The notes: a model not told the origin generated them from the sequence alone. DNA of 47,434 bases from Gemmatimonadota bacterium (GCA_003222155.1 QHUU01000073.1:1-47434); one strand, 5' to 3'. Counted from the stretch's first letter, positions 8,962 through 46,723 are shown. A program made the numbers and translations.

Positions 8962-9825
8962 ATGGGTCCCCCTCCCGTGCTCACGCGCCGCCGCTTTCTC
9001 ACCGCCACGGGCGGTGCGCTCGCCGCCGCCGTGTTGGGGGACGGGTTCATACGGGAGCCGGCGGCGATCGAGCTCACCCGACACGATCTCGCGATCCCCG
9101 GGCTCGACCCGCGCCTCGCCGGCCTGCGCCTCGCCTGCATCACGGACGTGCATCTGCACCGCCACTTTTCGCGCGCGGCGCGCGCCACCCTCGCGCTGCT
9201 CGAGCGGGAGCGCCCCGACGTCGTCCTCCTGATCGGCGACATCTGCAACTACCGTCGGGACCTGCCGGTGCTGGGCGACTGGGCACGCGCGGCGCGCGGT
9301 ACCCAAGCGACGTTCGCCACGCTGGGAAACTGGGAGCACGACGGCGGGATCGATCGCGGCCGGGGAGAGCGGACGTACGACCAGGCCGGTGTGGAGCTGC
9401 TCTACAACTCGAGCGCGCGCGTGTCGCTCCGCGGCGCGGAGCTCACGCTGGTGGGCGTCGACGACCCGGTGGCCGGAGAGCCCGACCTCGCCGCCGCCGT
9501 ACGCGGGCTCGATGCCGCCGATCCGGCGATCTGGATGGTGCATGCGCCGGGGTTCGTGGACGGCGTGCCGCGCGACCGCTTTCCCCGGCCCGCCGCGATC
9601 CTCACCGGCCACACGCATGGCGGCCAGATCCGCCTGCCGTTCTACGCGCCGTACACGCCCTGGGGGAGCGGCCGTTTCGTGGGGGGCTGGTACCGCGACA
9701 CGCTGGCGCCGCTGTACGTCTCGCGCGGCGTCGGCACGGTGCTGATTCCGGCCCGGTTTTTTTGTCCGCCGGAGGTGGCGGTATTTACGCTGAGGGACTC
9801 TTCGTCTCGGGCAGCGGCGCCTTGA
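8962..9825 (+). CDS. Tat-exported metallophosphoesterase (YkuE/YaeI-like)
   Basis: 287 residues. The N-terminus LTRRRFLTATGG followed by an Ala-rich hydrophobic stretch is a twin-arginine signal, so the folded enzyme is probably exported. Calcineurin-like metal motifs are in order: ITDVHLH, LLIGDICNY, TLGNWEHD, VHAPGF and GHTHGGQI. The third motif is normally GNH(D/E); Trp replaces that His here. Relatives such as YkuE and YaeI hydrolyse phosphodiester or pyrophosphate bonds in lipids. ATG 8962 is chosen because it directly precedes the Tat motif. The 3' end overlaps the convergent zinc-ribbon gene by 41 bp. Confidence 0.9.
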   Translation: MGPPPVLTRRRFLTATGGALAAAVLGDGFIREPAAIELTRHDLAIPGLDPRLAGLRLACITDVHLHRHFSRAARATLALLERERPDVVLLIGDICNYRRDLPVLGDWARAARGTQATFATLGNWEHDGGIDRGRGERTYDQAGVELLYNSSARVSLRGAELTLVGVDDPVAGEPDLAAAVRGLDAADPAIWMVHAPGFVDGVPRDRFPRPAAILTGHTHGGQIRLPFYAPYTPWGSGRFVGGWYRDTLAPLYVSRGVGTVLIPARFFCPPEVAVFTLRDSSSRAAAP

Positions 9826-17071: not shown

Positions 17072-17109
17072 GGTCGGGTCGCATCCTTCGGGAAGTACGG
17101 AGCGGGTCT

Positions 17110-17121
17110 GCACGATCGTGC
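17110..17121. promoter_or_regulatory. Perfect 12-bp palindrome upstream of the Wzc-like gene
   Basis: GCACGATCGTGC is a perfect palindrome about 40 bp upstream of the Wzc-like start, a position suited to an operator. No match to a known site is claimed. Confidence 0.4.
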
Positions 17122-17239
17122 CCGAGGCACACCGCAAGGGCGATACCGCGACCCTGGCGGGCCCCGGTCCCGTCAACTCCTTACGTCATGACCGGATAGC
17201 GGGCTCCGCTCCGGCGCGTTTCGGGCGCGGCGCCTGGCC

Positions 17240-20185: not shown

Positions 20186-21472
20186 TCAGTTCCTGACCGT
20201 CACCATCACGATGCCCGCGGTCGCCCGGTTGCCGACGGCATCGCGCGCGCTCGCGGTGAGGGCGTACGACCCATTCGGCACGGCACGGGAATCCCAGCGC
20301 AGCGCATACTTCGTGAATCGGTCTCTCCGAACCAGCGTCGGCGTGACGACTTCGGACCCGATGTCGCGGCCGTCCAGGCGGAACTGAACGCCGGCTACCC
20401 CCCGGTCATCCACCGCCGTCGCGACCAGGTCGATCGTGCCGCTGAGGACGCTCGTGCCGCCGGGTCCCGGCTGGAACAGCGACACCACGGGCGGGGCCAC
20501 GTCGGGCGACGCGTACGGGTGGCGCGCTTTCCATAGCGCGACCACGCTGTCCCACAGCGCGAGGCCCCGCGTCCCCGTCTCGAGCGTGAAGCAGCTCGGC
20601 AGGCGCTCCGGAAACGGACCATTGCCCTCCCAGATCATGATGTTGCCGGCGCACTCGTTCAGACGCCCCGGCGGGGGCGCCATGTACATGTCGGCGTGGT
20701 TCGACGACACGGATGAGTCGTCCGTGAAAAAGACGTTGTTGCGCAGGTTCAGCCTGGGCCCTCGCGTGGCGCTCCATTTCCAGAAGGCCTCGTGGCGGGG
20801 GATTGCTTCGCGCGTCTCGTAGATCCCATCCATCACCTGGAGGCGCAGCAGTGAATTGCGGATCGTCACGACGTTGGCCTGGCCATCCGGCACGTCGAGA
20901 CCGGGATCCTGGAGCGAGCTCATGACGTCGTAGCAGCCGTCGAAGAACGACGAGTCGATGAGACCGGTGTTGTACCAGTCGTTCTCGATGCAATCGTCCC
21001 GCCCGTACACGACGTGCACGTTGCGGATGGTCCAGTCGCCGTCGCCGCCGGCATCGAGACTGACGCCCTTCCCGTAGGCGAACGCCGTGAAATTCTCGAC
21101 CGTGAACGCCGCTGCGCCGGCGCGATTGGTGACGCCCACCACCATGCCGTACGTCTCGTGGATCGTGTTCCACGAGGCATCGGGTGGAAACGCCCCCAAC
21201 GCTTCCCCGCCGCTCCAACACATCCCCTCACCACCTGCGACATGGATCACGATGTGCTTGGTGGTGGGAAGGACGAACTGCGCGCCGCTCGCGTCGACGA
21301 CCGTGCCCGCCGCCAGCCGCTCGCGGTCGTACGCCTGCGTCTGGCGGCCGCGGATCGAGAAGGCCCCCGGGCGGGCGCTGCACGGGGCGGCCGTGGGCAG
21401 CGCCCGGCCGGCCCCCACCAGAAGGATGGCGCCACCTATCACCGCCCACATAGCTCGCGCGCTGGTGCTCAT
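20186..21472 (-). CDS. Secreted right-handed beta-helix protein with C-terminal Ig-like domain
   Basis: 428 residues. A hydrophobic N-terminal segment (AVIGGAILLVGAGRAL) is a likely signal peptide. The central part has short repeated strands typical of a pectate-lyase-like beta-helix (FTVENFTAFAYGKGVSL, WTIRNVHVVYGRDDCIE, VVTIRNSLLRL). The last 100 residues resemble a bacterial Ig-like domain (GTIDLVATAVDDRGVAGVQF, NGSYALTASARDAVGN). Shared signatures CWSGGE, DDCxE, DGCYD and MYMAPPPG show it is a paralogue of the proteins at 45109-46698 and 46724-47434. A polysaccharide-binding or -cleaving role is plausible from the fold; catalytic residues cannot be assigned. The stop lies 9 bp from the convergent histidine kinase stop. 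Confidence 0.8.
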   Translation of the reverse strand: MSTSARAMWAVIGGAILLVGAGRALPTAAPCSARPGAFSIRGRQTQAYDRERLAAGTVVDASGAQFVLPTTKHIVIHVAGGEGMCWSGGEALGAFPPDASWNTIHETYGMVVGVTNRAGAAAFTVENFTAFAYGKGVSLDAGGDGDWTIRNVHVVYGRDDCIENDWYNTGLIDSSFFDGCYDVMSSLQDPGLDVPDGQANVVTIRNSLLRLQVMDGIYETREAIPRHEAFWKWSATRGPRLNLRNNVFFTDDSSVSSNHADMYMAPPPGRLNECAGNIMIWEGNGPFPERLPSCFTLETGTRGLALWDSVVALWKARHPYASPDVAPPVVSLFQPGPGGTSVLSGTIDLVATAVDDRGVAGVQFRLDGRDIGSEVVTPTLVRRDRFTKYALRWDSRAVPNGSYALTASARDAVGNRATAGIVMVTVRN

Positions 21473-21587
21473 CCGCTCGATCCTCCCCGAGCGACAGCGC
21501 GGCGCAAGGTCGATACCGCGAGCCCCGTCCCGGCGCGCGCCCGCGGCGCGGTACGCCAGAGGGGCGCAGCGTCGCAGAACGCCCGCG

Positions 21588-21599
21588 GAGTTGTAACTC
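21588..21599. other. Short inverted repeat GAGTT-GT-AACTC in divergent spacer
   Basis: A perfect 5-2-5 inverted repeat in the 256-bp spacer between the beta-helix gene (minus) and the aminotransferase gene (plus). It could be an operator, but the arms are short. I see nothing else definable in this spacer. Confidence 0.3.
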
Positions 21600-21728
21600 G
21601 GTCGCGGCATCGCGCCGCACGCCACTCGCCCACCCTCGGCGTAACCCCTTCCACCGCAAGGCGCCGCGGCGTGCGATCTGGTGCATGCAACCTGCTTCCC
21701 CACACGACGCACCCACCACTGTGACGGC

Positions 21729-22931
21729 ATGACGACGATACCGGCTGCCTCGACTGCCTCGGTCCCCACACCCGCGCGGCGGGATTTCCTGCCGTTCGCT
21801 CCTCCGCTCATCGGCGAGGAAGAGATCGCCGAGGTCGTCGACACGCTGCGGTCGAGCTGGATCACGACCGGGCCCAAGACCAAGCGCTTCGAGCAGGAGT
21901 TCGCCGCCTATATCGGCGCGACCGGCGCGCTGGCGCTCAACTCCTGCACCGCGGGCCTCCACACGGCGCTGGTGACGCTGGGCATCGGCCCCGGGGCCGA
22001 GGTCATCACGACGCCGACGACGTTCGCGGCCTCGGTCAACGTCATCGAGCACGTGGGCGCCCGTCCCGTCCTGGTGGACGTGGAACCGGACACCTTGAAC
22101 ATCGACGCCGCGCTGGTGGCTGCGGCGATCACGCCTCGCACCCGCGCCATTCTTCCCGTGCATTACGCCGGCCACCCGGCCGACCTCGACCGGATCGGCG
22201 AGCTCGCGGCGGCGCACCGGCTCGCGGTGATCGAGGACGCGGCGCACGCCGTGGCGGCGAAGCACCGCGGCCGTCTCATCGGCGCGGGCGACAACCCCGT
22301 CGCCTTCAGCTTCTACGCGACCAAGAACCTCACGACCGCCGAGGGCGGGATGCTCACGGGCGACGCGGCGTTTCTCGATCGCGCCCGCATCGTGAGCCTG
22401 CACGGCATGAGCCGGGACGCCTGGAAGCGCTACGACAAGGGTGGGAGCTGGTTCTACGAGATCGTGGTGCCGGGCTTCAAGTACAACATGACCGACATCC
22501 AGGCCGCGCTGGGGCTGTGGCAGCTGCGCAAGCTCGCCGGCTTCCAGGAGCGGCGCCGGGCCGTGGTCCGGATGTACGACGCGGCGTTCGCGCCGGAGGA
22601 CGCGCTCGAGCTTCCGGCGCGCCGCCCCGAGGTGGAGCACGCCTGGCACCTGTACGTGCTGCGCCTCGTGCCCGGCGTGCTGCGCATCGACCGCGATGGC
22701 TTCGTCGAAGAGCTGCGGCAGCGGAACATCGGCACCTCGGTGCACTTCATTCCGATTCATCTGCACCCCTACTACCGGGACAAGTATCGCTACCAGCCCG
22801 ACAGCTTTCCGGTGGCGAACTCGAACTATCAGCGGATGCTGAGCCTGCCCTTGAGCGCCGGGCTGAGCGACGCCGACGCGCGCGACGTGATCGAGGCCGT
22901 GCTCGACGTCGTGCGCCGGCACCGGCGCTGA
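21729..22931 (+). CDS. DegT/DnrJ/EryC1/StrS-family sugar aminotransferase
   Basis: 400 residues of the PLP-dependent nucleotide-sugar aminotransferase family. Visible motifs are SSWITTGPKTKRFE, ALNSCTAGLHTAL, VIEDAAHAVAA and the PLP-lysine motif FYATKNLTTAEGGM with Lys199, and HFIPIHLHPYY near the end. Relatives transfer an amino group from glutamate to a 4-keto or 3-keto nucleotide sugar (ArnB, PglE or WecE types). The exact sugar cannot be read from sequence. It is the first gene of the plus-strand cluster, 12 bp before a PIG-L deacetylase, a pairing suited to making or editing an amino sugar. Confidence 0.93.
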   Translation: MTTIPAASTASVPTPARRDFLPFAPPLIGEEEIAEVVDTLRSSWITTGPKTKRFEQEFAAYIGATGALALNSCTAGLHTALVTLGIGPGAEVITTPTTFAASVNVIEHVGARPVLVDVEPDTLNIDAALVAAAITPRTRAILPVHYAGHPADLDRIGELAAAHRLAVIEDAAHAVAAKHRGRLIGAGDNPVAFSFYATKNLTTAEGGMLTGDAAFLDRARIVSLHGMSRDAWKRYDKGGSWFYEIVVPGFKYNMTDIQAALGLWQLRKLAGFQERRRAVVRMYDAAFAPEDALELPARRPEVEHAWHLYVLRLVPGVLRIDRDGFVEELRQRNIGTSVHFIPIHLHPYYRDKYRYQPDSFPVANSNYQRMLSLPLSAGLSDADARDVIEAVLDVVRRHRR

Positions 22932-26973: not shown

Positions 26974-28544
26974 CCGTCCCGACGCTGCTCGGCGCGCGCC
27001 GGGGGGCGCCGGAGACGGCGCATCCCCCCACCCTCACCCAGAAGGCGTCGCTCACGGTCGTCGCCTACGGGCTCGAGTACGGCGCGAAGATCGTCGTGGG
27101 CTTGGTGCTCACGCCCATCCTGGTGAGCCGCCTCGGCCAGGCGTTCTACGGTGTGTTCGAGATGCTCGGCCGCCTGACCAGCTACGTCGCGCCGGTGAGC
27201 GGCCGCCCGCCCGAGGCGCTGCGCCTCGTGGTGGCGAGCCGTCAGGCCGCGCGCGACACGGACGCACAGCGGCGGGCGGTGGGCGGCGCCCTGGCGGTGT
27301 GGCTGTTGTTCCTGCCCCTCGCCGCCGCCGCCGGCGCGGTCGTCACCTGGCTCGCGCCGACGCTCGCCGGCGTCGCGCCCGCGCTCGCGGGGACCGTGCG
27401 GCTCGCGTGCGCGGCACTCGTCGGCGCGGTCCTCCTGGGCGGTCTGCTCGCCGTGCCGGAATCGGTCCTGTTCGGCGTGAACCTCGGCTACAAGCGCATG
27501 GAGCTGCAGGCGGGGTTGAGCGTCGTGGGCGGCGTGCTGACGGCGGCGGCCGCCTACGCCGGGCTGGGACTCGCCGGAGTGGGGGCGGCGCAGCTCGTGG
27601 TCGCCGCCCTCACCGGCTTGTGCTACTGGGGGATCGCGCGGAGCTACGTCGCGTGGTTCGGCGCCGCACGCCCCACCCGCGCCGACCTGCGCGCCCTGTT
27701 CGCGATGAGCGGCTGGCTCTCCCTGGGCGACGTCATCGCCAAGCTGCTGCTGGCGAGCGATCTCGTCATCCTCGGGTTCATGCTGTCGCCCTCGGTGGTC
27801 ACCACCTACGTCCTCACGAGCTATGCCGCGCGTACCGCCGTGAACCTGCACAGCGCGGCGGTCACGGCCGCCATGCCGGGCCTGGGCGGCCTCATCGGCC
27901 GGGGACAGTTCGCCTGGGCGGCCCTCGTGCGCCGCGAGATCTTCTCTCTCACGTGGCTGTTCGTCACGGCGGCGGGCGTGACCATCCTGGTGTGGAACCA
28001 CTCGTTCGTGACGCTGTGGATCGGCGGCGGCCAATGGGCGGGCACGGTCGTGGACCTGCTCATCGTGATCACCGCGGTGCAGACCGCGTTCATCCGCACC
28101 GACTCCAACATCATCGACGCCGCGCTGCACCCCTGGCGCCGGGTGCGGGTCGGCGCCGCGGCGGCGGTCGTGTCGCTGGCCGCGATGGTCGCGCTCACGC
28201 GCTGGCTCGGCCTCCCGGGTCTCTGCCTCGGCATCGTGACGGGCCGGGCGGTGCAGACCCTGGCCTATCCGGGTCTCGCCCGCGCCTGTCTCGGTGGAGC
28301 GACGCCGGAGACCAACTGGCCTGCGGCGCGGCCCCTGGTGGCGACGGCGCTGCTGTTCGCCGGCGCCGCGGCGCTCGGGAGTCGTCTCGTCGTCTCCGGG
28401 TGGCTGGTGTGGATCGGGGGCGTGACCGTGAGCGTGGCGCTCGCCGTGGCCCTGGCGTTCGCGGTCGGACTGCCGTCGGACGCCCGGCGCGGCGTGATCG
28501 CGCGAGCGCGGGCGGTCATCGTGGGACGGGGGGCGGCCGCATGA
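26970..28544 (+). CDS. Wzx-like polysaccharide flippase (first copy)
   Basis: 524 residues with about 12-14 predicted membrane helices over the whole length, of the MOP/polysaccharide transporter type. It begins LTQKASLTVVAYGLEYGAKIVVG and carries GLNPV-like conserved pieces VPESVLFGVNLGYKRM and ASDLVILGFML. It is a clear paralogue of the protein at 37244-38821, which has the same pieces almost unchanged. Wzx proteins flip undecaprenyl-linked repeat units to the periplasm. It is coupled by ATGA overlaps to the genes on both sides. Confidence 0.85.
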   Translation: MTVPTLLGARRGAPETAHPPTLTQKASLTVVAYGLEYGAKIVVGLVLTPILVSRLGQAFYGVFEMLGRLTSYVAPVSGRPPEALRLVVASRQAARDTDAQRRAVGGALAVWLLFLPLAAAAGAVVTWLAPTLAGVAPALAGTVRLACAALVGAVLLGGLLAVPESVLFGVNLGYKRMELQAGLSVVGGVLTAAAAYAGLGLAGVGAAQLVVAALTGLCYWGIARSYVAWFGAARPTRADLRALFAMSGWLSLGDVIAKLLLASDLVILGFMLSPSVVTTYVLTSYAARTAVNLHSAAVTAAMPGLGGLIGRGQFAWAALVRREIFSLTWLFVTAAGVTILVWNHSFVTLWIGGGQWAGTVVDLLIVITAVQTAFIRTDSNIIDAALHPWRRVRVGAAAAVVSLAAMVALTRWLGLPGLCLGIVTGRAVQTLAYPGLARACLGGATPETNWPAARPLVATALLFAGAAALGSRLVVSGWLVWIGGVTVSVALAVALAFAVGLPSDARRGVIARARAVIVGRGAAA

Positions 28545-30184
28545 CCCGGCCCGTGCTCCGGTTCCGCGAGATCACCGGGCTGCCGCAGCTCGCCTGGGTC
28601 GCGAGCGCCACCGCGGACGGCGACGAGGCGATCGTCTACCACGGCTCGTCCGTCGAGCACTCGCCGGAGTGGATGGTCGAGGGCGTGTGGGATGAGGAGT
28701 TCCGGGCCGGCGCCTTTCACACGAGCCCGCACTTCTTCGGGAGCGGCATCCGCGTCCAGCAGGACCGGCTGCATTTCGTCCCCTCGAGCGCGCTGGTGAA
28801 CCGGCTGCTGTATTGCCGATACCAGGAGCGCATCGTGGTCTCGAACAGCCTGGCGCTGCTGCTCGCCTTCACCGGCGCCACGCTCAACCCCGCGCACCAG
28901 TATCGCGCGGAAACGTACGCCATCCGGCACGGCGTCGGGCGCTACCCCCGCAGCTTCACGATCACGCATCCGGAGATCCGCTCGTTCTACCAGGTCTACG
29001 ATGAGAGCCTGGTGGTCGCCGCGGGCGGGCTCACCTTCGAGTCGCTGCGGCGTGCGCCGCACCTCACGTCGTTCGCCCACTACCGCGCCCTGGTCGGGGA
29101 GGCGCTGGGCCGGTTGCGGGCCAATTACGCCAGCCCCGAGCGGCGCCTGCCCATGACGGCGTTCGCGACGATCTCCTCGGGCTACGACTCGGCCGCCAGC
29201 GCCGCGCTGGTCGCACCGCTCGGCATCGCGATGTGTTTCACCAGCCGGCGCTCCAACTCGCACATCCCCTCGTGGCTCAGCCGGCGCGCGGCCATCGACG
29301 ACGGGAAGCCGATCGCCGACGTGCTCGGCCTCCGCACGGTCTATATCGACCGCCGGACCGCCCGCGTCGACGGGGACGAGCTGTACTTCCTCGCGCCGGG
29401 CTGCGCGCCCACGATGACGGTCCTGCATCCGCTCGCCAGACAGCTGCAGCAACGCGGCGCGCCGGCCGTCCTGTTCACCGGATTCCAGGGAGACGAGATG
29501 TGGGACGTGAACCGCTGGGAGCGCGCCTATCAGGAGGCGGGACTGGTGCGCGGCGACACGACCGCCTTGATGTTGTCGGAGATCAGGCTCAAAGCGGGAT
29601 TCGTCAACATCGCGGTGCCATCGCTGTTCGCCCACGCGGTGCGGGATATCTCGGCGATCTCGCTGTCGGACGAGATGGCGCCCTGGCGCCTGGGCTCGGG
29701 CTACGAGCGGCCTATCCCACGGCGCATCCTCGAGACGGCGGGCGTGCCGCGGACGTTGTTCGGGGGGCGGAAGAAGGCGATCGTCGAGCGGCGCACCTAC
29801 CCCGCCAACCGCGTGCTGCGCCGCGCCTTCTTCACTTATCTCCGGGCGCAGGGCCGCTGCTCGGGCGCCTTCGTCTACCTGCACGGCGCGGTGAACCGCT
29901 GCGCCTTCCCGTTCGTGCGGGCGTGGGACCTCCTGCGGCAGCGGCTGTTCGGCATCGAGCCACCCACCATCCCCGCGGCCTACGTCTGGAAGCGCTTCGA
30001 CTTCGCCTCGATGATGTTCGCCTGGGCCGCGGGCGCGTTGAGCGAGCGCTTCGCCGCCGTGCTACGGGAGAGCGGCGTGGCACGGCACCCGTCTCCGGCC
30101 GGCCGTCGTTCGGACACCGATCCCGGTCGAGCAGTCCCCTGGGCGCGTCCCACCGTCGAAGGCGCGCGGGCGATGCTGCCATGA
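28541..30184 (+). CDS. Asparagine-synthetase-like PP-loop protein without glutaminase domain
   Basis: 547 residues. The pyrophosphatase-type ATP loop FATISSGYDSAAS (SGYDS at 213-217) and the second motif FTGFQGDEMWD match the synthetase half of asparagine synthetases and beta-lactam synthetases. The N-terminus MTRPVLRF lacks the Cys2 nucleophile of a glutamine amidotransferase domain, although the first 200 residues could be a remnant of that fold. The enzyme may adenylate a carboxylate and attach an amine, for example amidating a uronic acid, as proposed for WbpG-like proteins in other surface polysaccharide clusters. Start and stop overlap neighbours as ATGA. Confidence 0.83.
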   Translation: MTRPVLRFREITGLPQLAWVASATADGDEAIVYHGSSVEHSPEWMVEGVWDEEFRAGAFHTSPHFFGSGIRVQQDRLHFVPSSALVNRLLYCRYQERIVVSNSLALLLAFTGATLNPAHQYRAETYAIRHGVGRYPRSFTITHPEIRSFYQVYDESLVVAAGGLTFESLRRAPHLTSFAHYRALVGEALGRLRANYASPERRLPMTAFATISSGYDSAASAALVAPLGIAMCFTSRRSNSHIPSWLSRRAAIDDGKPIADVLGLRTVYIDRRTARVDGDELYFLAPGCAPTMTVLHPLARQLQQRGAPAVLFTGFQGDEMWDVNRWERAYQEAGLVRGDTTALMLSEIRLKAGFVNIAVPSLFAHAVRDISAISLSDEMAPWRLGSGYERPIPRRILETAGVPRTLFGGRKKAIVERRTYPANRVLRRAFFTYLRAQGRCSGAFVYLHGAVNRCAFPFVRAWDLLRQRLFGIEPPTIPAAYVWKRFDFASMMFAWAAGALSERFAAVLRESGVARHPSPAGRRSDTDPGRAVPWARPTVEGARAMLP

Positions 30185-30891
30185 GCACCATCCTCAAGCG
30201 GGGGCTGGACGTGTTGCTCTCGGTGGTCGCGCTGGTGCTGCTCAGCCCGCTCCTGTCCCTCGCGGCGCTCGGCGTCTGGCTCTCCGATCGCACCCCGATC
30301 CTGTACCGCGCGCGCCTGACGGGGCGCAACGGCCGGCCGTTCACGATGTACAAGCTCCGCACCATGCGGGTGAACCACGGGGCGTTCAAGAGCGTCATCA
30401 CCGCCGATCGCGACCCCCGCGTGTTCCGGTTCGGGGCGTGGCTGCGGCGCGCCAAGGTCGATGAGCTGCCACAGCTCGTCAACATCCTGCGCGGCGAGAT
30501 GTCGATCGTCGGACCGCGGCCCGAGCATCCCGACATCGTGCGCCACCACTATGGGCCGGAGCACCGCGAGTTGCTGGGCGTGCGCCCGGGGCTCACGAGC
30601 CCCGGCACGCTGTACGACTACGCCCACGGCGACACGATCGTCGGGCGCAGCGATCCGGAGCGCGGCTACGTGGAGCGACTGCTGCCGCTGCGACTGGCGC
30701 TCGACCTGGTCTATGTCCGCCGGGCGTCGCTCGCCTACGACGCCGCGCTCGTCGCCCGCACCGTGCGCATGATCGCCGCGACCGTGTTCGGGCGCCGCTC
30801 CTCGGGCGATCCGCCGGAGCTGATCCAGGCGCGGGGGCTGCTCGCCCTCGACCGCGGGACATCCCGTCGTACGGCTACCGCCCATTTGTAA
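30181..30891 (+). CDS. Bacterial sugar transferase (polyprenyl-phosphate priming enzyme)
   Basis: 236 residues of family PF02397. One N-terminal membrane segment (VLLSVVALVLLSPLLSLAALG) leads into the catalytic part: FTMYKLRTMR, LRRAKVDELPQLVNILRGEM and IVGPRPEHP. These enzymes move a sugar-1-phosphate from a nucleotide sugar to undecaprenyl phosphate, starting repeat-unit synthesis at the inner membrane. The short form, without the extra membrane helices of WbaP, is common. It is the last gene of the coupled run 25744-30891. Confidence 0.93.
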   Translation: MSTILKRGLDVLLSVVALVLLSPLLSLAALGVWLSDRTPILYRARLTGRNGRPFTMYKLRTMRVNHGAFKSVITADRDPRVFRFGAWLRRAKVDELPQLVNILRGEMSIVGPRPEHPDIVRHHYGPEHRELLGVRPGLTSPGTLYDYAHGDTIVGRSDPERGYVERLLPLRLALDLVYVRRASLAYDAALVARTVRMIAATVFGRRSSGDPPELIQARGLLALDRGTSRRTATAHL

Positions 30892-30904
30892 GGGAGCTGC
30901 CACA
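30887..30904 (+). promoter_or_regulatory. TGTAA-N5-CTGCCACA element, copy 1
   Basis: The 18-bp TGTAAGGGAGCTGCCACA covers the stop codon of the sugar transferase and begins 119 bp upstream of ATG 31006. The same 13 fixed bases with the same spacing occur at 35005-35022 and 40154-40171. Regulatory function is inferred from conservation and constant distance to the next gene. Confidence 0.6.
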
Positions 30905-30974: not shown

Positions 30975-31005
30975 GCGAGCACGCAACATGCAGAAGGAGT
31001 ACGTG

Positions 31006-34000
31006 ATGCACACCCGTGCGCGTCCCCTCGCCGCCGCCTCCCGCGCGCTCGTCGCGCTGCTGGCCATCATCACATGTCGCAGCGACCAGGGACCCGAGGC
31101 CCCCATTCAGCGGACCGCGGCCCGGCCCAGCTTCGCGACGGTGCCTGTCGGCGCGGTCACGCTGGTCGGTGCCGGGAACATCGCGCGCTGCGACCGCGCC
31201 AACGACGAAGCCACGGCGGCGCTGCTGGACGGAATCCCCGGCACCGTGTTCGCGCTGGGCGACGCCGCGTATCCCAACGGCACGGCAACGACCTACTCCA
31301 ACTGCTACGACGCCAGTTGGGGCCGCCACAAGGCCCGCACGTACCCGGTCCTGGGCAACCACGACTACGACTCGAGCGCCACCGCCGCCGGCTACTTCGG
31401 CTACTTCGGCGCCGGCGCGGGAGAGCCGAGCAAGGGCTACTACAGCTACGATCTCGGTGCCTGGCACATCGTCGTCCTGAACAGCAACACCAGTTTCGTC
31501 TCGACCGCGGCGGGCTCGCCCCAGGAGACGTGGCTGAAAGCGGATCTCGCAGCCACCACCAAGCAGTGCCTGCTCGCGATGTGGCACAATCCGCGCTTCT
31601 ACTCCACCACGTCCAGCTCGTTCTCACCGAGTTCGTCGGTGAAGCCGTTCTGGGACGACCTCTATGCCGCGCACGCCACGCTGATCGTCAACGCGCACAT
31701 GCGCGACTACGAGCGGTTCGCGCCACAGGCGCCGACCGGCGTCGCCGACCCGGTGACCGGGATCCGCGAGATCATCGTGGGCACGGGGGGCGAGGGGCTC
31801 GACGCCGCGAGCACGTTGATCACGGCGAACAGCGAGGTGCGGATCAGCGGCGCGTACGGCGTCCTGAAGCTCACGCTCGCCGACGGGTCGTACTCCTGGC
31901 AGTTCGTTCCGGTGCCGGGCCAAGCCGCGAGTGATGCGGGGAGCGGCACGTGCTACGCCGCACCGCCTCCGGCACCGTTCGTGAACGCCGGCCCCGACAT
32001 GCAGGCGCACCCCGGCGATACGGTGAGCGTCGCGGTCACGTTCAGCGATCCGGGACCGAACGATGCCCCATGGTCGTACACGATCGCTTGGGGCGACGGG
32101 TCTCCCGCCACGACCGGCAGCACGACGACCCAGAGCTCACCCATTGGCGCGTCTCACGTCTACCCCACGCTCGGCACGGACAGCGTGCGCGTCACCGTCA
32201 CCAACAGTGCGGGCAGGTCGGGAGCGGATTCGCTCGCCGTGGCGCTCACGACAGCCACCACGGCCGTGATGGTGGGAGCAGGCGACATCGCGGACTGCGC
32301 CAAGACCAGCGACTCCCTCACCGCGAACCTGCTGGACACCATTCCCGGCACGGTATTCACCGCCGGCGACAACGCCTATCCAGAGGGATCGACCACCGAC
32401 CTCGCGAACTGCTACGGTCCCACGTGGGGCCGCCAGAAGGCCCGCACCAGGCCCGCGCCGGGCAATCACGACTACAGCCAGCCCGGCGCCGCCCCGTATT
32501 TCGCGTACTTCGGCGCCGCCGCAGGGGACCCGAGCAAGGGCTATTACAGCTACGACCTGGGCGATTGGCATGTCGTCGCCCTGAACTCCATGATTGCGCA
32601 CTGGGCCGGCTCGCCGCAGGAACAGTGGCTGCGCGCCGACCTCGCGTCGAGCACCAAGCGCTGCACGTTCGCCTATTTCCACCATCCGCTCTACACGTCC
32701 GGCATGTTGGCCGATACGTCGGTCCGGGCGCTGTGGCAAGCGCTCTACGACTTTGGCGCCGAGATCGTCGTCAGCGGGCACGACCACGACTATGAGCGGT
32801 TCGCGCCCCAGACCCCGCGCGGCGTGGCCGACCCGCTCACCGGGATCCGCGAGTTCATCGCGGGCACCGGGGGCGCCGGCCTGTTCACGCTGGGTACGCC
32901 GCTCCCGAACTCCGAGGTGCGCAACGACGTCACCTTCGGCGTTCTCAAGCTGACGCTCTCCTCCGGAGGGTACGCCTGGCGCTTCATCCCTGTGGCGGGG
33001 AAGACGTTCACGGATGCCGGCAGCGGAACCTGCCACGATGCCCCCTCGGCCACGAATCACCCGCCCAGCGCCGCCGTCGGAGGACCGTACACGGGCATCG
33101 AGGGCGGCGCGGTCGCCTTCGACGCCACCGGGTCGTCCGACCCGGACGGCGAGACCGTGAGCTACGCCTGGACCTTCGGTGATGGCAGCACCGGCAGCGG
33201 CGTGAAGCCGACCCATGTCTACGCCGACAACGGCAGCTACTCCGTGACGCTCACGGTCACGGACGCTCGCGGCGCCGCGAGCCCCGCGGCGAGCACCACG
33301 GCCACCATCGCCAACGCCGCGCCGGTCGCGAGCGCAGGCGCCCAGGCGGCGACCGCCGCAGCGAGCTTCACGTTCAGCGCCACCTTCAGCGACGCCGGCG
33401 TGAACGACGGCCCCTGGGCGTTTACGATCGCGTGGGGGGACAGCTCGGCGCAGACGACCGGAAGCGCCACGAGCCAAGCGAGCGCGATCACGGCCACGCA
33501 CACCTACGCCGCACCGGGGACGGACACCGTCCGGATCACCGTCGCGGACAAGGACGGAGCGACCGGCTCGGCCACCGCGGCCGTAAACGTCAGCGCGACG
33601 AATCGGCCGCCTGCCGCGGTGGCGGGAGGACCCTACGCCGGCTCCGAAGGCGCAGCGATCGCCTTCGACGGGAGCGCATCGTCCGACCCCGACGCAGACG
33701 CGTTGAGCTACGCGTGGAGCTTCGGCGACGGCGCGTCCGGTACGGGCGTCAAGCCGACCCACAGCTACGTCGACAACGGCGCCTACACGGCGACGCTCAC
33801 GGTGACCGACGCGCGCGGTGCGGCGAGCGCGCCGGTCACCACGACTGTGACGATCGCCAACGCGACTCCGACGGTGAATGCGGGACCGAGCCAGACCGTC
33901 ACCACCGGCGCGCCCTTCGCGCTGAATGCGACGTTCGCCGATCCCGGCAGGAACGACGCGCCCTGGTCGTATGCGATCGATTGGGGCGATGGCGGCGTGC

Positions 34001-34962
34001 AGACCACCGGAACCACGGCCAGCCAGGCGTCACCCATCGCGGCGACGCACGCGTACGGCGCCGCGGGGACGGCCGTGGTACAGGTGAGCGTGACGGACAA
34101 GGACGGGGCGGTGGGCTCCGCCACGACCACGGTCACGATCACGCAGCCGGTAGCCTCGGTGACGCTGGTGGGTGCGGGCAACGTCGCGCGCTGCGATCGC
34201 ACCAACGACGAAGCGACGGCGAGCCTGCTCGACGGCATTGCGGGCACCGTCTTCGCCCTGGGCGACGCCGCCTATCCCAACGGGACGGCCGCCACCTATC
34301 AGAACTGTTACGATCCGAGCTGGGGCCGCCACAAGGCGCGCACCTACCCCGTGATCGGCAATCACGACTACGACTCGAGCGCCACGGCGGCCGGATACTT
34401 CGGCTACTTCGGGACGGCCGCAGGCGACCCCACCAAGGGATACTACAGCTACGACCTGGGCGCCTGGCACATCGTCGTGCTGAACGGCAACTCGAGCTTC
34501 GTCGCGACAGCCGCGGGCTCTCCGCAGGAGACCTGGCTCAAGGCCGACCTCGCGGCCACCACCAAGCAGTGCGTACTCGCGCTGTGGCACAACCCGCGCT
34601 TCTACTCGACCACGTCGACGTCGTCCTCGCCCACGTCGTCCGTGAAGCCGTTCTGGGACGACCTCTACGCCGCCCATGCAGAGCTGATCATCAACGGGCA
34701 TATGCGTGACTACGAGCGGTTCGCGCCGCAGACGCCGGCGGGCGCGGCCGATCCCCTGAACGGCATCCGTGAGATCATCGTGGGCACCGGGGGAGAAGGA
34801 CTGGACAGCCCCAACACGCTGATCATCCCGAACAGCGAGGCACGGATCAGCGGTGTGTACGGCGTCCTGAAGCTCACGCTGTACGACGGCTCGTATGCCT
34901 GGCAGTTCGTCCCGGTGGCAGGCCAGACCGCCACCGATTCGGGGAGCGCCTCGTGTCACTGA
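31006..34962 (+). CDS. Giant secreted protein: three metallophosphoesterase modules and five PKD domains
   Basis: 1,318 residues. ATG 31006 is chosen because AGAAGGAG lies six bases before it. The N-terminus has a hydrophobic stretch (ALVALLAIITC, Cys24), a signal peptide and perhaps a weak lipobox. Order: phosphoesterase 1 (48-320), PKD (326-417), phosphoesterase 2 (421-680), four PKD (686-1047), phosphoesterase 3 (1051-1318). Module 2 has the purple-acid-phosphatase-like set GAGDIADC, GDNAYP, GNHDY, FHHPLY and GHDHDYERF. Modules 1 and 3 read GAGNxARC, GDAAYP, GNHDY, WHNPRF and HMRDYERF, losing the first Asp and the second His of the last motif. Modules 1 and 3 resemble each other most, and the four PKDs form a doubled two-domain unit. 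PKD domains bind or space on surfaces and glycans, so a cell-surface phosphatase that contacts the polymer is plausible. Confidence 0.93.
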   Translation: MHTRARPLAAASRALVALLAIITCRSDQGPEAPIQRTAARPSFATVPVGAVTLVGAGNIARCDRANDEATAALLDGIPGTVFALGDAAYPNGTATTYSNCYDASWGRHKARTYPVLGNHDYDSSATAAGYFGYFGAGAGEPSKGYYSYDLGAWHIVVLNSNTSFVSTAAGSPQETWLKADLAATTKQCLLAMWHNPRFYSTTSSSFSPSSSVKPFWDDLYAAHATLIVNAHMRDYERFAPQAPTGVADPVTGIREIIVGTGGEGLDAASTLITANSEVRISGAYGVLKLTLADGSYSWQFVPVPGQAASDAGSGTCYAAPPPAPFVNAGPDMQAHPGDTVSVAVTFSDPGPNDAPWSYTIAWGDGSPATTGSTTTQSSPIGASHVYPTLGTDSVRVTVTNSAGRSGADSLAVALTTATTAVMVGAGDIADCAKTSDSLTANLLDTIPGTVFTAGDNAYPEGSTTDLANCYGPTWGRQKARTRPAPGNHDYSQPGAAPYFAYFGAAAGDPSKGYYSYDLGDWHVVALNSMIAHWAGSPQEQWLRADLASSTKRCTFAYFHHPLYTSGMLADTSVRALWQALYDFGAEIVVSGHDHDYERFAPQTPRGVADPLTGIREFIAGTGGAGLFTLGTPLPNSEVRNDVTFGVLKLTLSSGGYAWRFIPVAGKTFTDAGSGTCHDAPSATNHPPSAAVGGPYTGIEGGAVAFDATGSSDPDGETVSYAWTFGDGSTGSGVKPTHVYADNGSYSVTLTVTDARGAASPAASTTATIANAAPVASAGAQAATAAASFTFSATFSDAGVNDGPWAFTIAWGDSSAQTTGSATSQASAITATHTYAAPGTDTVRITVADKDGATGSATAAVNVSATNRPPAAVAGGPYAGSEGAAIAFDGSASSDPDADALSYAWSFGDGASGTGVKPTHSYVDNGAYTATLTVTDARGAASAPVTTTVTIANATPTVNAGPSQTVTTGAPFALNATFADPGRNDAPWSYAIDWGDGGVQTTGTTASQASPIAATHAYGAAGTAVVQVSVTDKDGAVGSATTTVTITQPVASVTLVGAGNVARCDRTNDEATASLLDGIAGTVFALGDAAYPNGTAATYQNCYDPSWGRHKARTYPVIGNHDYDSSATAAGYFGYFGTAAGDPTKGYYSYDLGAWHIVVLNGNSSFVATAAGSPQETWLKADLAATTKQCVLALWHNPRFYSTTSTSSSPTSSVKPFWDDLYAAHAELIINGHMRDYERFAPQTPAGAADPLNGIREIIVGTGGEGLDSPNTLIIPNSEARISGVYGVLKLTLYDGSYAWQFVPVAGQTATDSGSASCH
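31147..31965 (+). repeat. Phosphoesterase module repeat, copy 1
   Basis: Closely similar to 34156-34962 at DNA level, for example in the GRHKAR to YFGYF region where most differences are third-position. This indicates duplication of the module within the gene or gene conversion. Confidence 0.8.
33058..33594 (+). repeat. PKD two-domain unit, copy A
   Basis: Encodes a PKD pair (GGPYTGIEGGAVAFDATG then SFTFSATFSDAGVNDGPW) that is repeated directly after it at 33601-34146 with the same order of the two domain types. Confidence 0.75.
33601..34146 (+). repeat. PKD two-domain unit, copy B
   Basis: Second copy of the unit at 33058-33594 (GGPYAGSEGAAIAFDGSA then FALNATFADPGRNDAPW). The alternating A-B-A-B order shows duplication of a pair and not of single domains. 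Confidence 0.75.
34156..34962 (+). repeat. Phosphoesterase module repeat, copy 2
   Basis: Encodes the C-terminal phosphoesterase module, the closest relative of copy 1 at 31147-31965 and with the same lost metal ligands. Confidence 0.8.
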
Positions 34963-35004
34963 CCGGCCGGGCGCGAAACCGCCGCATCGTAACGCCCACG
35001 TAGC

Positions 35005-35022
35005 TGTAAGGAGCCTGCCACA
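35005..35022 (+). promoter_or_regulatory. TGTAA-N5-CTGCCACA element, copy 2
   Basis: TGTAAGGAGCCTGCCACA lies 42 bp past the giant phosphoesterase stop and 115 bp upstream of ATG 35120. Unlike copies 1 and 3 it does not overlap a stop codon, so its conservation is not explained by coding sequence. Confidence 0.6.
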
Positions 35023-35119
35023 GCGCCGCCATCCGCGCCGGCTCATCGCAGCCAATGGTATGCGGGGTCATGAGTTACACGATGTGCCCGGGGCACGTCT
35101 CCTGCCTCGCCGAAGCGTG

Positions 35120-36598
35120 ATGCCGAGCCGCCCGCTGGTCGACCCCTCCGCGCCCGACGTCGCTTCCGGCCGCCCGCGCTCCCTGGTCCTCGAGCTGGGC
35201 GAGGCGCTGGAACGGCGGGACGTGATGTACTGCTGCCAGTGGAAAGGCAGCTGGAAGAAGCGCCGCTGGATGTCGGGACAGGGCGACATCGATCTGCTGG
35301 TGGAGCGCTCTACGGAACCCCGTTTCACCGCGGTGCTCGAGGAGCTGGGCTTCCGGCGCGCCACGCCTCCCTGGGAAGCGCGGGTCGCGGGACTGGAGAG
35401 CTGCTTCGGGCTCGATCGGGCCACGGGACGTCTCATCCACGTGCACGTGCACTACCAGCTGCTCACCGGCGGCTTCTGGACCACCATCTACCGGCTTCCC
35501 TTCGAGCGAGCGCTGCTCCAATCCACCACCCATCACAATGTGTTTCGCACACCTGCACCGGACTTCGAGCTGCTCGTGTTCGCGATCCGCATGGTGCAAC
35601 GCTACCGCTGGCGCGATGCCCTGGTCGGAGAGCCGGGCTGGCTCAAGGCCATCCAGGGGGAGCTCGACGCGCTGCTCAAAGAGGCGCAGCTACACCGCCT
35701 GGAGGACGTGATGGCGCAGCATCTCCCCACCGTCGATCTGGCCTTCGTGGACGAATGTCTCGCCTCGCTGCGACCGGGCTACTCTCGCTGGCGCCGTCTC
35801 GCGCTGCGGCGGGAGTTGCACGACCGGCTGCGGGCCCATTCCAAGCAGGCGCCCTTGAGCTTGAAGCTCTGGCGTACCGCCCGCTCGATCGTCACGCTGC
35901 GGGGCCGACTCGGGGGGGACTCGACGAAAAAGCGGCTGGCGCACGGCGGCACCGTGATCGCGCTGGTGGGAGGCGACGGCGCGGGTAAGTCGACGTGCGT
36001 GCAGGAGCTCGCCCGATGGCTCGGCGCCGAGCTCGACGTGATGACCGCGCATCTCGGCCGGCCGCCGCGCTCCTGGCTCACCCTCGCGGTGGGAGCGCTC
36101 CTGAAAGTGCGCCGGGTGATCGGAAAGAGGCCCGCCGACGACTCTCCCGAATTCCCGGGCTACATCTCCTGCCTGCGCGATCTCTGCACGGCCCGCGACC
36201 GCTACCGCCTGTATCTGCAGGCACGGCGGTTCGCCCTCGCCGGCGGGGTCGCGCTGTGCGAGCGGTACCCGGTCCCGCAGAACTGGGAGCTCGCCGGCCC
36301 GCGGCTGGGGGAGTTCGCGGCGCGGCTGGCCCGCACCCGCCTCGGGCGTCTGCTGCTCGAGGCCGAGCGTCGCTACTACCAGCACATCCTGGCCCCGGAC
36401 ATCCTGATCGTGCTGCAGATCGATCCCGAGGCGGCGGTGCGCCGCAAGACCACCGAGCCGGCGGACTACGTGCGCACCCGCAACCGGATCGTGCGGGGTG
36501 CCGACTGGTCCGGGAGCGGCGCTCGGTTCGTCGACGCCGGCCGGCCGCTCGCCGAGGTCGTCGAGGACCTGAAGGTCCTCATCTGGTCGGCGCTCTGA
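35120..36598 (+). CDS. Nucleotidyltransferase-like domain fused to a thymidylate-kinase-like P-loop kinase
   Basis: 492 residues. The N-terminal 250 residues resemble the nucleotidyltransferase fold of PF14907-type proteins: a GDIDLLV motif at 55-61 where the metal-binding Asp pair is expected, and VHVHYQL further on. From about residue 281 a kinase domain starts with ALVGGDGAGKSTC, and later has LCERYPVPQ and ADYVRTRNRIVRG. The domain is of the thymidylate-kinase fold, but placement in a polysaccharide cluster argues against dTMP as the substrate. ATG 35120 is preferred (GTG 35117 is alternative); an upstream extension has no likeness. The stop overlaps the next start as TGATG. Confidence 0.8.
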   Translation: MPSRPLVDPSAPDVASGRPRSLVLELGEALERRDVMYCCQWKGSWKKRRWMSGQGDIDLLVERSTEPRFTAVLEELGFRRATPPWEARVAGLESCFGLDRATGRLIHVHVHYQLLTGGFWTTIYRLPFERALLQSTTHHNVFRTPAPDFELLVFAIRMVQRYRWRDALVGEPGWLKAIQGELDALLKEAQLHRLEDVMAQHLPTVDLAFVDECLASLRPGYSRWRRLALRRELHDRLRAHSKQAPLSLKLWRTARSIVTLRGRLGGDSTKKRLAHGGTVIALVGGDGAGKSTCVQELARWLGAELDVMTAHLGRPPRSWLTLAVGALLKVRRVIGKRPADDSPEFPGYISCLRDLCTARDRYRLYLQARRFALAGGVALCERYPVPQNWELAGPRLGEFAARLARTRLGRLLLEAERRYYQHILAPDILIVLQIDPEAAVRRKTTEPADYVRTRNRIVRGADWSGSGARFVDAGRPLAEVVEDLKVLIWSAL

Positions 36599-38821: not shown

Positions 38822-40158
38822 CGGCCGCCATCGCGGCCGCACGGCCCGCTGCGCCCCGGCCCTGGCAGGCCACCGCGTCGTCGTTGGCGCACCGGATCGT
38901 GTGCGGGGCGTTCTACCTGTTCGTCTGCTCCATCCCCTTCGAGTTTTCCGATCGGGATGCGCGGGACTTCCCGATCGAGATCCCCACGGCCATAGGCGTC
39001 CTCTTCCTGGCCACGACGATCCTGCAGCCGCGGACCAGCTTCGGTCGTGCCTCGCGGCCCGCCCGGTGGTTCATGCTCTACCTGTACATGTTCGTCGTCG
39101 CGGCGGCGATCAGCGGTCGCGACCATCTCGCGACGCTCCTCAACGGGGCGGATTACTGGACCGAAGTCCTGAAGATGCTGTTTTCACTGGTGCAGCTGTT
39201 CCTCATCTTCTGGGTGGCGCGCAACCTGATGCGGTCGCCCGCCGTCACTCAGCGCGCGCTGCTCGCGCTCGGCCTCGCGTGCGTGGTGCGCGCCGCCATG
39301 CCGTTCCTGGGCATCATGACGACGGTGCACAAGGTCCAGACGGGCGGCGCCCGGCTTTCGGCATTGGGTCAGAACTCCAATCACGCGGCCATGATCCTGG
39401 GAGCCGGGCTGGTCGCGCTGGTGGGCCTCACCTTCGCGCGCCAGGGGCGGACGTGGCGGCGACTGCTCGTCGGCGCACCGCTCATCGGCCTGCTCGCGAT
39501 TGCGGTGGCCGACACCGGATCGCGCGGCGGTATTCTCGCCCTCGCCTGCGGCATCATGGCCTTCATGTTCCAGGGCGGCACCCTGGGCAACCGCCTCCGC
39601 AACATGGCGCTCGCGCTGTTCGTCATCGCGGGGCTCGCGGTCGCGGCCTACCAATCCGAGGTGATGCGCAACCGGTTCGAGGACACGCTCGAGACCGGCA
39701 CGCTCACGGGCCGCGAGCGGATTTATCCGGCCGTCGTCGGCATGATCGTCGACCGCCCGCTGTTCGGCTGGGGACCCGCGAACAACAAGTACGAGCTCGG
39801 CCTCCGCCTCGACGAGCGCGTCCGTCGCCGCCGCGGCACGCACAACTCGGTGCTCGAGGTGCTGAGCGCGACCGGCATCGCCGCCGCCATCCCCTTCCTG
39901 TTCGGCACCTGGCTGTGCCTGTGGAGCGCGTGGCGGGCCCGCGCCGGGCCCGACGGGACGCTGCCCCTGGCCCTCACGCTCATGGTGATGGTGTCGAACA
40001 TGAGCGGGGACTGGTTCATCACGCCGCTCTACTGGTTCGCCCTCGCCTACGCGGTTGCGAGTGAGGGCCATGTGGTGGCTCGCGCCGCCGTGGCGTGGCT
40101 GGCCGAACGCCTGTCGCGGTCCCTGCCGGGGCGTATCGGGACGCCCGCGCAGCTGTAA
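38818..40158 (+). CDS. Wzy/O-antigen ligase-like polymerase
   Basis: 446 residues with about 10-12 membrane helices and a large periplasmic loop. The Wzy_C-type region includes LSALGQNSNHAAMILG, VADTGSRGGILAL, LTGRERIYPAVVG and GWGPANNKYE followed by RRGTHNSVLEVLSATG. These pieces are typical of O-antigen polymerase/ligase proteins. Next to a Wzx flippase and with a Wzc and Wza nearby, polymerisation of flipped repeat units is the likeliest role. The TAA stop lies inside regulatory element copy 3. Confidence 0.9.
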   Translation: MTAAIAAARPAAPRPWQATASSLAHRIVCGAFYLFVCSIPFEFSDRDARDFPIEIPTAIGVLFLATTILQPRTSFGRASRPARWFMLYLYMFVVAAAISGRDHLATLLNGADYWTEVLKMLFSLVQLFLIFWVARNLMRSPAVTQRALLALGLACVVRAAMPFLGIMTTVHKVQTGGARLSALGQNSNHAAMILGAGLVALVGLTFARQGRTWRRLLVGAPLIGLLAIAVADTGSRGGILALACGIMAFMFQGGTLGNRLRNMALALFVIAGLAVAAYQSEVMRNRFEDTLETGTLTGRERIYPAVVGMIVDRPLFGWGPANNKYELGLRLDERVRRRRGTHNSVLEVLSATGIAAAIPFLFGTWLCLWSAWRARAGPDGTLPLALTLMVMVSNMSGDWFITPLYWFALAYAVASEGHVVARAAVAWLAERLSRSLPGRIGTPAQL

Positions 40159-40171
40159 CGCAGCTGCCACA
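40154..40171 (+). promoter_or_regulatory. TGTAA-N5-CTGCCACA element, copy 3
   Basis: TGTAACGCAGCTGCCACA covers the Wzy-like stop codon and begins 120 bp upstream of ATG 40274. An AT-rich patch including GGATATATGG (near 40209-40218) follows and could be the -10 region of a promoter. Confidence 0.6.
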
Positions 40172-45108: not shown

Positions 45109-45800
45109 TCAGTTACTGACCGTCACCGTCACGCCGGCGGACGTCGTCGTATGGCCGGCCGTGTCTCGAGCGATTGCCGTGAGCGTGTAGGTCCCGTTCG
45201 CCACGCCGTGCGAGTCCCACGTCAGCGCGTAGTGCGTGGGGCCGAACGCGTCGTCACCACTCACGCCGTCCTGCGTCACCTCCGCCCCGATGTTCTGGCC
45301 GTTCAGCTGGAGCTGCACGCCCGCCACCGCGCGATCGTCCACTGCGGTCGCGATGATCGTGACGGTACCCGTCAGCGTCGTGCTGCCCGAGATGCCCGGC
45401 GAGAAGAGCGACACGATCGGCGGCGCCACGTCGGGCAACGGGTCCGGATGGGCGGCCTGCCACTGCGCCACGGCGTTGTTCCAATACTGCAGGCCCGCGG
45501 CGCCCGTCATGATCGTAAAGCACTGCTGCCCGTTGAAGGTGGTGGGGAGCGTCTCCGGGAACGACCCGGAGCCGAGCCAGACCATGACGTTGTTCCTGCA
45601 GTCGGCGAGCTTCCCGGGGGGCGGCGCCATGTACATGCGAGCGCCATTCCCCTCTTCGGACGGCCCGTCGGCACGGAACACGTTGTTGTACAGGGCGAGG
45701 CTCGGCGCGAGGTCGCTCCACTTCCAGAACGCGTTGTGGTTGGGCACGGGGCCGGAGTACACCGAGTCCAGCGCCTGCAGCCGCACCAAGGAGTTGGTGA
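45109..45800 (-). repeat. Tandem duplicate segment of beta-helix genes, copy 1
   Basis: DNA closely matches 46724-47410 base by base over nearly 700 bp with scattered, mostly synonymous changes. Confidence 0.8.
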
Positions 45801-46698
45801 TCGTGATGAGATTGTCGACCCCCTGAGTGGCACCAGGGTCTTCCTGCGAACTGACGGCGTCATAGCAGCCGTCGAGGAACGTGGAGTCGATCGTCCCGCC
45901 GTTGAAGAAATCGTCCTCGACGCAATCGTCGCGGATGTACTTGAAGTGCGCGTTGCGGATGGTGAACCCGGTGTCCAGGCCGGGATCGTCGAAGCTGACG
46001 CCCTTGCCGTACGCGAAGACCGTGAGATTCTCGATCCGGACCCCGACCGCGCTGCTCTGGCTGCCGGGGATCATCCCGTACTTGTCGTGCATCGTGGTCC
46101 ACGACGTCGCGGGGGGAAACTGGCCCAGGATCTCGCCGCCCGACCAGCAGAGGCCCGACCCTCCTCCCACCCGGACCACGACGTTCACCGACGTGTCGAG
46201 CAGAAACTGCGCCGTGGTCGCGTCGATCTTCGACGAGGAGGCCAGGCTGGTTGTTTCGTAGGTCGACGTCTGCGCGCCGCTCAGGGCGACGCTCGGGCCC
46301 GCCTCGTTCAGGCACGCGCCTGCGGGAGGCGGTGCCAGCGTCCAGACGATCGCCGTTACGGAATCGGACTTGCTGTCACGGGCGACGACGTGGAACCGGC
46401 CCGCCCGCGCACCCGCCGTGTAGCGCCCGTAGTGAACGCCCTGACTCGTGGTCGAATCGCTGATGGTGCCGCCCGTGGCGCTCCAGGTGACGGCGATGGG
46501 AATGGTATCGCCGGCGGCACCGAGATCGAAGGCCACGAATTGCGTAGACTGATTCTCAGGGAGCGCGACGGTCTGCGGGACGACCACCAGCCGCCCGCCG
46601 CCGCCCGAGCCCGTGATCTGCGAGGTGTGGTCGCAGCTCAGGACCAGGGCGGCGGTCAGTGTCGCCGTCAGTTGCGCCGGGGCTCGGCTCCTCCACAT
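45109..46698 (-). CDS. Beta-helix lipoprotein with N- and C-terminal Ig-like domains
   Basis: About 529 residues from ATG 46698 (GTG 46707 adds three). A signal peptide ends ALVLSC, a good lipobox. An Ig-like domain (LPENQSTQFVAFDLGAAG, YTAGARAGRFHVVARD) precedes a right-handed beta-helix (VRIENLTVFAYGKGVSF, FTIRNAHFKYIRDDCVE, LITITNSLVRL). The last 110 residues form a second Ig-like domain. It is a paralogue of the proteins at 20186-21472 and 46724-47434, and nearly identical to the latter over its C-terminal 160 residues. Polysaccharide binding or cleavage is plausible; no catalytic residues can be named. Confidence 0.82.
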   Translation of the reverse strand: MWRSRAPAQLTATLTAALVLSCDHTSQITGSGGGGRLVVVPQTVALPENQSTQFVAFDLGAAGDTIPIAVTWSATGGTISDSTTSQGVHYGRYTAGARAGRFHVVARDSKSDSVTAIVWTLAPPPAGACLNEAGPSVALSGAQTSTYETTSLASSSKIDATTAQFLLDTSVNVVVRVGGGSGLCWSGGEILGQFPPATSWTTMHDKYGMIPGSQSSAVGVRIENLTVFAYGKGVSFDDPGLDTGFTIRNAHFKYIRDDCVEDDFFNGGTIDSTFLDGCYDAVSSQEDPGATQGVDNLITITNSLVRLQALDSVYSGPVPNHNAFWKWSDLAPSLALYNNVFRADGPSEEGNGARMYMAPPPGKLADCRNNVMVWLGSGSFPETLPTTFNGQQCFTIMTGAAGLQYWNNAVAQWQAAHPDPLPDVAPPIVSLFSPGISGSTTLTGTVTIIATAVDDRAVAGVQLQLNGQNIGAEVTQDGVSGDDAFGPTHYALTWDSHGVANGTYTLTAIARDTAGHTTTSAGVTVTVSN

Positions 46699-46723
46699 CC
46701 ACCGCACACACTGAAGACCCCCG

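Follow-up and report, generated by a model that had tools for sequence, protein, structure and literature searches.

In the purple acid phosphatase (PAP) of kidney bean, Fe(III) at metal site M1 is held by Asp135, Asp164, Tyr167, and His325, and Zn at site M2 is held by Asp164, Asn201, His286, and His323, with Asp164 bridging the two; His295 and His296 touch a substrate mimic (PMC2267794). It is already known or suspected that PAP folds can serve as anchors or carry changed ligands, and that tandem enzymes can include an inactive copy. Pseudoenzymes have been much studied in eukaryotic signaling, whereas few studies concern bacterial surface proteins in which they stand in tandem with an intact copy. 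We analyze here a gene for a 1318-amino-acid protein in a 47,434-nucleotide stretch of DNA from a Gemmatimonadota soil bacterium (GCA_003222155.1, QHUU01000073.1:1-47434; hereafter the window). An earlier sequence-only reading had described its product as a secreted phosphoesterase with one apparently active module between two degenerate ones.

Domain layout and metal ligands of the three modules

The gene is an uninterrupted frame with no stop or frameshift, preceded by a ribosome-binding site (AAGGAG, positions 30994-30999) 6 bases 5' of the ATG at 31006, and its GC content at third codon positions (GC3) is 0.89. Pfam detected three Metallophos stretches (whole-protein E, 7.9e-20) and five PKD stretches (E, 3.6e-77; PF18911 at 254.9 bits against a cutoff of 27), the same numbers of phosphoesterase modules and PKD domains that the sequence-only reading had counted, in the order module-PKD-module-PKD4-module. 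Identity is 84% between modules 1 and 3 and 58 to 59% between either of them and module 2. Four cysteines are common to all three modules, which fits an exported protein. A collapsed repeat or assembly artifact was ruled out, since 16% of residues are different between modules 1 and 3 (pS 0.46) and the same module order occurs in independent genomes (L072 and L077, described below), which also excludes a chance layout.

Ligand positions were assigned by profile alignment to PAP chains together with the structural matches of a module 3 model. Written in the order D135-D164-Y167-N201-H286-H323-H325 (kidney bean numbering), module 2 reads DDYNHHH, which is seven of the seven PAP metal ligands, including the PAP-typical tyrosine. 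Modules 1 and 3 each read NDYNHHR and lack the complete set, with Asn in place of Asp135 and Arg in place of His325. The motifs given by the sequence-only reading were exact: modules 1, 2, and 3 carry GAGNIA, GAGDIA, and GAGNVA, then GDAAY, GDNAY, and GDAAY, then HNP, HHP, and HNP, and finally NAHMRDYERF, SGHDHDYERF, and NGHMRDYERF, with GNHD common to all three. Its further statement that the substituted positions are metal ligands in PAP-type phosphatases agrees with the roles of Asp135 and His325 in the kidney bean enzyme (PMC2267794). Both substitutions hit M1, and every M2 ligand is kept. As judged from this alignment, the metal site of modules 1 and 3 is half lost, not erased, and one metal could still be bound through the intact M2 ligands.

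Structure prediction, which the sequence-only reading had proposed as a check, was carried out for module 3. The AlphaFold model was of high quality (predicted local distance difference test [pLDDT] score, 93; predicted template modeling [pTM] score, 0.92), and its best solved matches were all PAPs (E, 2.9e-14; probability, 1.0; TM score to the query, ∼0.75 to 0.8). This assigns module 3 to the PAP fold, and module 1 with it through their high identity.

In most homologues with a readable N terminus, a hydrophobic stretch is followed by [TAS]-Cys and then by polar residues. The window gene has Thr at position -1 of the lipobox Cys, unlike the usual lipobox. From these N-terminal features, the protein is probably a surface lipoprotein. 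In place of the "secreted" label of the sequence-only reading, the lipobox-like signal suggests a protein that is probably lipid anchored.

Given its ligand string, module 2 is a plausible catalytic module. Among second-sphere equivalents, the GNHD His (His202) is present and the His of the SSGxHG loop is absent. This loop, which follows the HxP motif, reads SSGxHG in most standalone relatives and TSGMLA in module 2; its His corresponds to the His296-type residue of PAP in an alignment that has a gap of one residue in the loop. By a strict count, complete modules had the SSGxHG His in 48 of 74 cases when standalone and in 5 of 21 when part of a multimodule chain, and degenerate modules had it in 3 of 58 (Fisher P = 0.001 for standalone versus multimodule complete modules, kinship ignored). 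The earlier inference that module 2 is active is backed by its full set of seven ligands and its GNHD His; the missing His296-like residue makes it less certain.

Recurrence of the plan and maintenance of the degenerate modules

Relatives were collected from the genome of origin (14 matches on seven contigs), the phylum (76 of 395 genomes with matches), the family (33 of 102 genomes with matches), and a genome_contigs search (20 loci, mostly from Gemmatimonadetes soil genomes). The full ligand set was present in 74 of 102 single-module frames. In the 31 multimodule chains, by comparison, exactly one module was complete in 21, none in 10, and two in 0. When labels were shuffled among chain modules, 3.8 chains with at least two complete modules were expected, and a count of 0 arose in 43 of 20,000 shuffles; the chains are related genes rather than independent events, so this result is descriptive. 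The complete module stands second in 19 of the 21 chains, that is, wherever the N terminus is intact: of the two exceptions, L177 is truncated at its 5' end, and L070:7698 begins at a gap in the assembly that directly follows a frame encoding a degenerate module. The full layout, module-PKD1-module-PKD4-module, recurs in two other genomes (L072, 1347 amino acids; L077, 1335 amino acids); a search for it in other genomes had been suggested by the sequence-only reading. On these sequence comparisons, the plan with one complete module is a lineage-wide pattern among Gemmatimonadetes relatives.

Within the genome of origin, the ligand set is complete in just 3 of the 12 full-length modules, which cautions against blanket annotation of such modules as phosphatases. 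In the paralogues on contigs C88, C15, C56, and C99 (L064 to L067), every module is degenerate; some of these paralogues have one module accompanied by PKD or Big_7 domains, and chains without any complete module occur as well.

Phylogenetically, modules 1 and 3 belong to a clade of 15 (Shimodaira-Hasegawa-like approximate likelihood ratio test [SH-aLRT], 99), all of which have Asn at Asp135. In a second degenerate clade, composed mostly of N-terminal modules, His325 is replaced by Glu, Ala, Thr, or Gln; in a third, His323 is mostly replaced by Gln and Tyr167 by Phe. The clades persisted in trees built without the seven ligand columns, with a support of 83 for that of modules 1 and 3; grouping as an artifact of shared ligand columns was thereby ruled out. 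A single family offers many natural cases in which the same fold lost either metal site in separate clades. Across 66 degenerate modules, the M1-only ligands were kept in 25 to 27, the M2-only ligands in 35 to 59, and the bridging Asp in 61. Among the 14 full-length members of the modules 1 and 3 clade, the M2 set, allowing His at Asn201, was complete in 13 and the M1-only set in none. Asp135 was lost in all 14 and His325 in 13, with Arg at the latter position in 11; the substitutions noticed by the sequence-only reading are largely kept within this clade.

Outside the ligands, the degenerate modules mostly keep the positions that complete modules conserve. In the modules 1 and 3 clade, the canonical residue was found at 96% of these positions versus 58% of ligand positions, and across the three degenerate clades the ranges were 93 to 96% versus 52 to 60%. 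Within the modules 1 and 3 clade, conservation near the former active site was 0.86, versus 0.82 elsewhere. The ratio of nonsynonymous to synonymous substitution (dN/dS) was 0.13 between modules 1 and 3, 0.12 to 0.27 for other degenerate pairs, and 0.18 and above for complete pairs; these are estimates by simple counting, made on sites that are GC rich and in part saturated. Decaying copies were ruled out by these ratios. Together, residue conservation, dN/dS, and near-site conservation support a function without a full metal site, of a kind that they do not specify. By these measures, the degenerate modules look like maintained pseudoenzymes rather than decaying copies, and modules 1 and 3 appear as what the tree and alignment say is an old, selectively maintained subfamily with the M1 site lost and M2 kept.

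Proposed role and competing explanations

We propose that the gene, which lies in an exopolysaccharide cluster, encodes a probable Gemmatimonadetes surface lipoprotein in which PKD spacers link three PAP-fold modules. Modules 1 and 3 would have lost phosphoester hydrolysis and would act in binding or positioning, perhaps of one metal ion or of a phosphate-bearing ligand, with a single surface-held hydrolytic module between them. We hold this proposal, taken as a whole, with moderate confidence. By comparison among relatives, architecture, clades, ligand loss, and purifying selection strongly support what the sequence-only reading said of pseudo-modules around one metal-complete module; catalysis by module 2 is plausible but less secure than in that reading. 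Its suggestion that modules 1 and 3 bind phosphorylated glycans is a guess.

Several points weigh against the proposal, in addition to the kinship of the chains and the simple dN/dS method already mentioned. Any activity of module 2, which lacks the second-sphere His, may be weak or altered. Conversely, the M2 ligands kept in modules 1 and 3 could allow weak one-metal chemistry, and gene conversion between these two modules may have occurred. The AlphaFold model of two modules together was of too low quality (pLDDT, 58; pTM, 0.39) to show how the modules pack. Finally, no polysaccharide genes were seen among the sampled neighbors of several paralogues elsewhere in the genome of origin, on other contigs; involvement with polysaccharides may therefore fit the window gene but not the whole family. 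A broader rule would state that multimodule PAP chains of Gemmatimonadetes never have more than one metal-complete module, that this module is always the second, and that in the flanking modules, lacking M1 and keeping M2, the phosphatase pocket has become a one-metal binder of a phosphate-bearing surface ligand; this generalization is tentative, and we doubt it more than we credit it.

Other explanations differ in what they ask of the individual modules. Modules 1 and 3 could be inert spacers or stabilizing partners, retained because they preserve fold and length while binding no ligand themselves, as might be suggested by the different ligands lost among degenerate modules and by the spacer architecture at which the PKD domains already hint. 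However, conservation around the former active site equals or exceeds that of the remaining columns in the clade, and the residues conserved specifically in the clade include active-site loops, which would be needless in a pure spacer; we consider this explanation unlikely. It is quite improbable that modules 1 and 3 are still enzymes, with a single metal at M2 activating water while the Arg that stands in for His325 neutralizes the phosphate in place of M1. Such an activity would accord with the M2 ligand set being complete in 13 of 14 clade members, with Arg being conserved in 11 of the 14, and with the GNHD His in both window modules, and Toxoplasma GRA44 has the same Asp-to-Asn change with its activity left unsettled (PMC7031617). 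Less variation would be expected if the active site were under catalytic selection, however: Gln or His replaces the Arg in 3 of the 14, His or Lys replaces Asn201, the GNH His has become Arg or Gln in 6 of 15 clade members, and Phe occupies the position of the second-sphere His in most members. Slightly less probable still is a chain that is noncatalytic throughout, module 2 included, and serves in surface binding or as a structural protein: the SSGxHG His is missing from module 2, and 10 of the 31 chains dispense with a complete module, but module 2 has kept all seven ligands, and selection for metal chemistry would best explain one ligand-complete module among ligand-losing neighbors in 21 chains. 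With intact and degenerate copies in one chain, the role that a half-lost two-metal site may still play becomes directly testable.

Genomic setting and comparison with known systems

The gene lies inside a polysaccharide cluster, as the sequence-only reading had stated (Table 1). Besides the neighbors tabulated, the downstream side holds a kinase-like frame and an O-antigen-ligase-type protein, with a glycosyltransferase and a deacetylase further on, and the left side of the cluster holds a Wzc-like kinase and an aminotransferase. Synteny is partial in two other genomes: the triple-module gene, NTP_transf_5, and flippase of L077 are in the same order as in the window, and in L072 a sugar transferase is near the triple-module gene.

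Table 1. Features of the three-module gene and its closest tabulated neighbors in the window
Feature	Position	Strand	Basis or remark
Three-module PAP/PKD protein gene, 1318 aa	31006..34962	+	Open frame, AAGGAG, GC3 0.89, Pfam
Signal peptide with lipobox-like end ...AIITC (Cys24)	31006..31077	+	Sequence and homologue N termini; lipoprotein reading putative
Module 1, degenerate, ligand string N-D-Y-N-H-H-R	31153..31962	+	Motif and ligand alignment
Module 1, AAC (Asn) at position of M1 ligand Asp135	31177..31179	+	Ligand roles, PMC2267794
Module 1, CGC (Arg) at position of M1 ligand His325	31702..31704	+	Ligand alignment
PKD domain 1	31966..32241	+	Pfam PKD_4/PKD
Module 2, full ligand set D-D-Y-N-H-H-H, putative catalytic module	32266..33042	+	Ligand alignment
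Module 2 loop HHPLYTSGMLADTS, without second-sphere His of SSGxHG loop (His296-like)	32680..32721	+	Loop comparison
PKD domains 2-5	33055..34155	+	Pfam, local PKD profile
Module 3, degenerate, N-D-Y-N-H-H-R, PAP-like	34156..34959	+	Ligand alignment; AlphaFold model, pLDDT 93
Module 3, AAC (Asn) at Asp135 position	34180..34182	+	Ligand alignment
Module 3, CGT (Arg) at His325 position	34705..34707	+	Ligand alignment
Upstream frame with bacterial sugar transferase domain PF02397	29233..30891	+	Pfam; NCBIfam EPS_sugtrans, partial match
Downstream nucleotidyltransferase-like frame, NTP_transf_5 below cutoff	34895..36598	+	Pfam; also adjoins L077 triple gene
Polysaccharide flippase-like protein PF01943	37181..38821	+	Pfam; also near L077 triple gene

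Additional features were observed in and around the cluster. The frame at 28541-30181 (+) has the look of a PP-loop/asparagine-synthase protein (ISSGYDSAASAALV), with no match in Pfam or NCBIfam. Big_7-ending proteins at 20189-21883 (-) and 45112-46707 (-) flank the cluster, and a Big_7 domain also ends a degenerate paralogue in L065. A separate metallophosphoesterase-like frame lies at 8872-9822 (+; Pfam E, 4.5e-07). Among the frames at 17448-18980 (+) and 14693-17176 (-), a response regulator nearest the PEP-CTERM/XrtA-type family, below the cutoff, sits beside a Wzc-type kinase. An intergenic element, TGTAA(G/C)N5TGCCACA, occurs at 30887-30904, 35005-35022, and 40154-40171 (+). Allowing two mismatches, the pattern was found 4 times in the window versus 0.26 by chance, one copy being intragenic and on the opposite strand; three of its four exact matches in the genome of origin are within the polysaccharide cluster, and near-copies stand directly upstream of multimodule genes in L070, L072, L077, L178, and L184. 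It is possibly a regulatory or leader element. Matches to a sigma-54 promoter pattern were no commoner than chance. Phage or plasmid mobility was considered and rejected: plasmid relatives are <60% identical, and viral fold matches are general phosphoesterases.

Literature searches on PKD with purple acid phosphatase, metallophosphoesterase pseudoenzymes, and Gemmatimonadetes PAP returned no such protein type, with subscription papers mostly outside their coverage. The wider superfamily has noncatalytic members in the phosphoesterase folds of Vps29 and the DNA polymerase B subunit. Vps29 was a weak fold match of the module 3 model; unlike modules 1 and 3, these proteins are distant, intracellular, and not PAP-type. 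The PAPs of red kidney bean (1kbp, 4dhl, 2qfp) and sweet potato (1xzw) and wheat phytase (6git) have the same fold, and module 2 has their seven ligands. The identity in the fold matches is only ∼18 to 19%, however, and the chain differs in its repeated modules and PKD spacers, in the M1 site gone from two modules, and in the missing His296-like residue of module 2. Plasmodium GAP50 (3tgh), a fold match of module 3, is a PAP-fold protein with a membrane-anchor role (reviewed in PMC8949495), although it is eukaryotic, has a single module, and is also described as an acid phosphatase. Toxoplasma GRA44 has a PAP-type domain whose Asp-to-Asn change at the Fe(III) ligand is the same as in modules 1 and 3, and the pseudophosphatase question was left open for it (PMC7031617); in contrast to the window protein, it has Glu for the second-metal Asn, lacks the Tyr, and is no bacterial PKD multimodule chain. 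Carboxypeptidase D repeats an enzyme domain three times in tandem, with one copy predicted to be inactive (PMC5683605); its fold is unrelated, two of its three copies are active, and the odd copy is terminal. Compared with these systems, the novelty lies in a plan that recurs within this bacterial family and in a loss of ligands that is specific to one metal.

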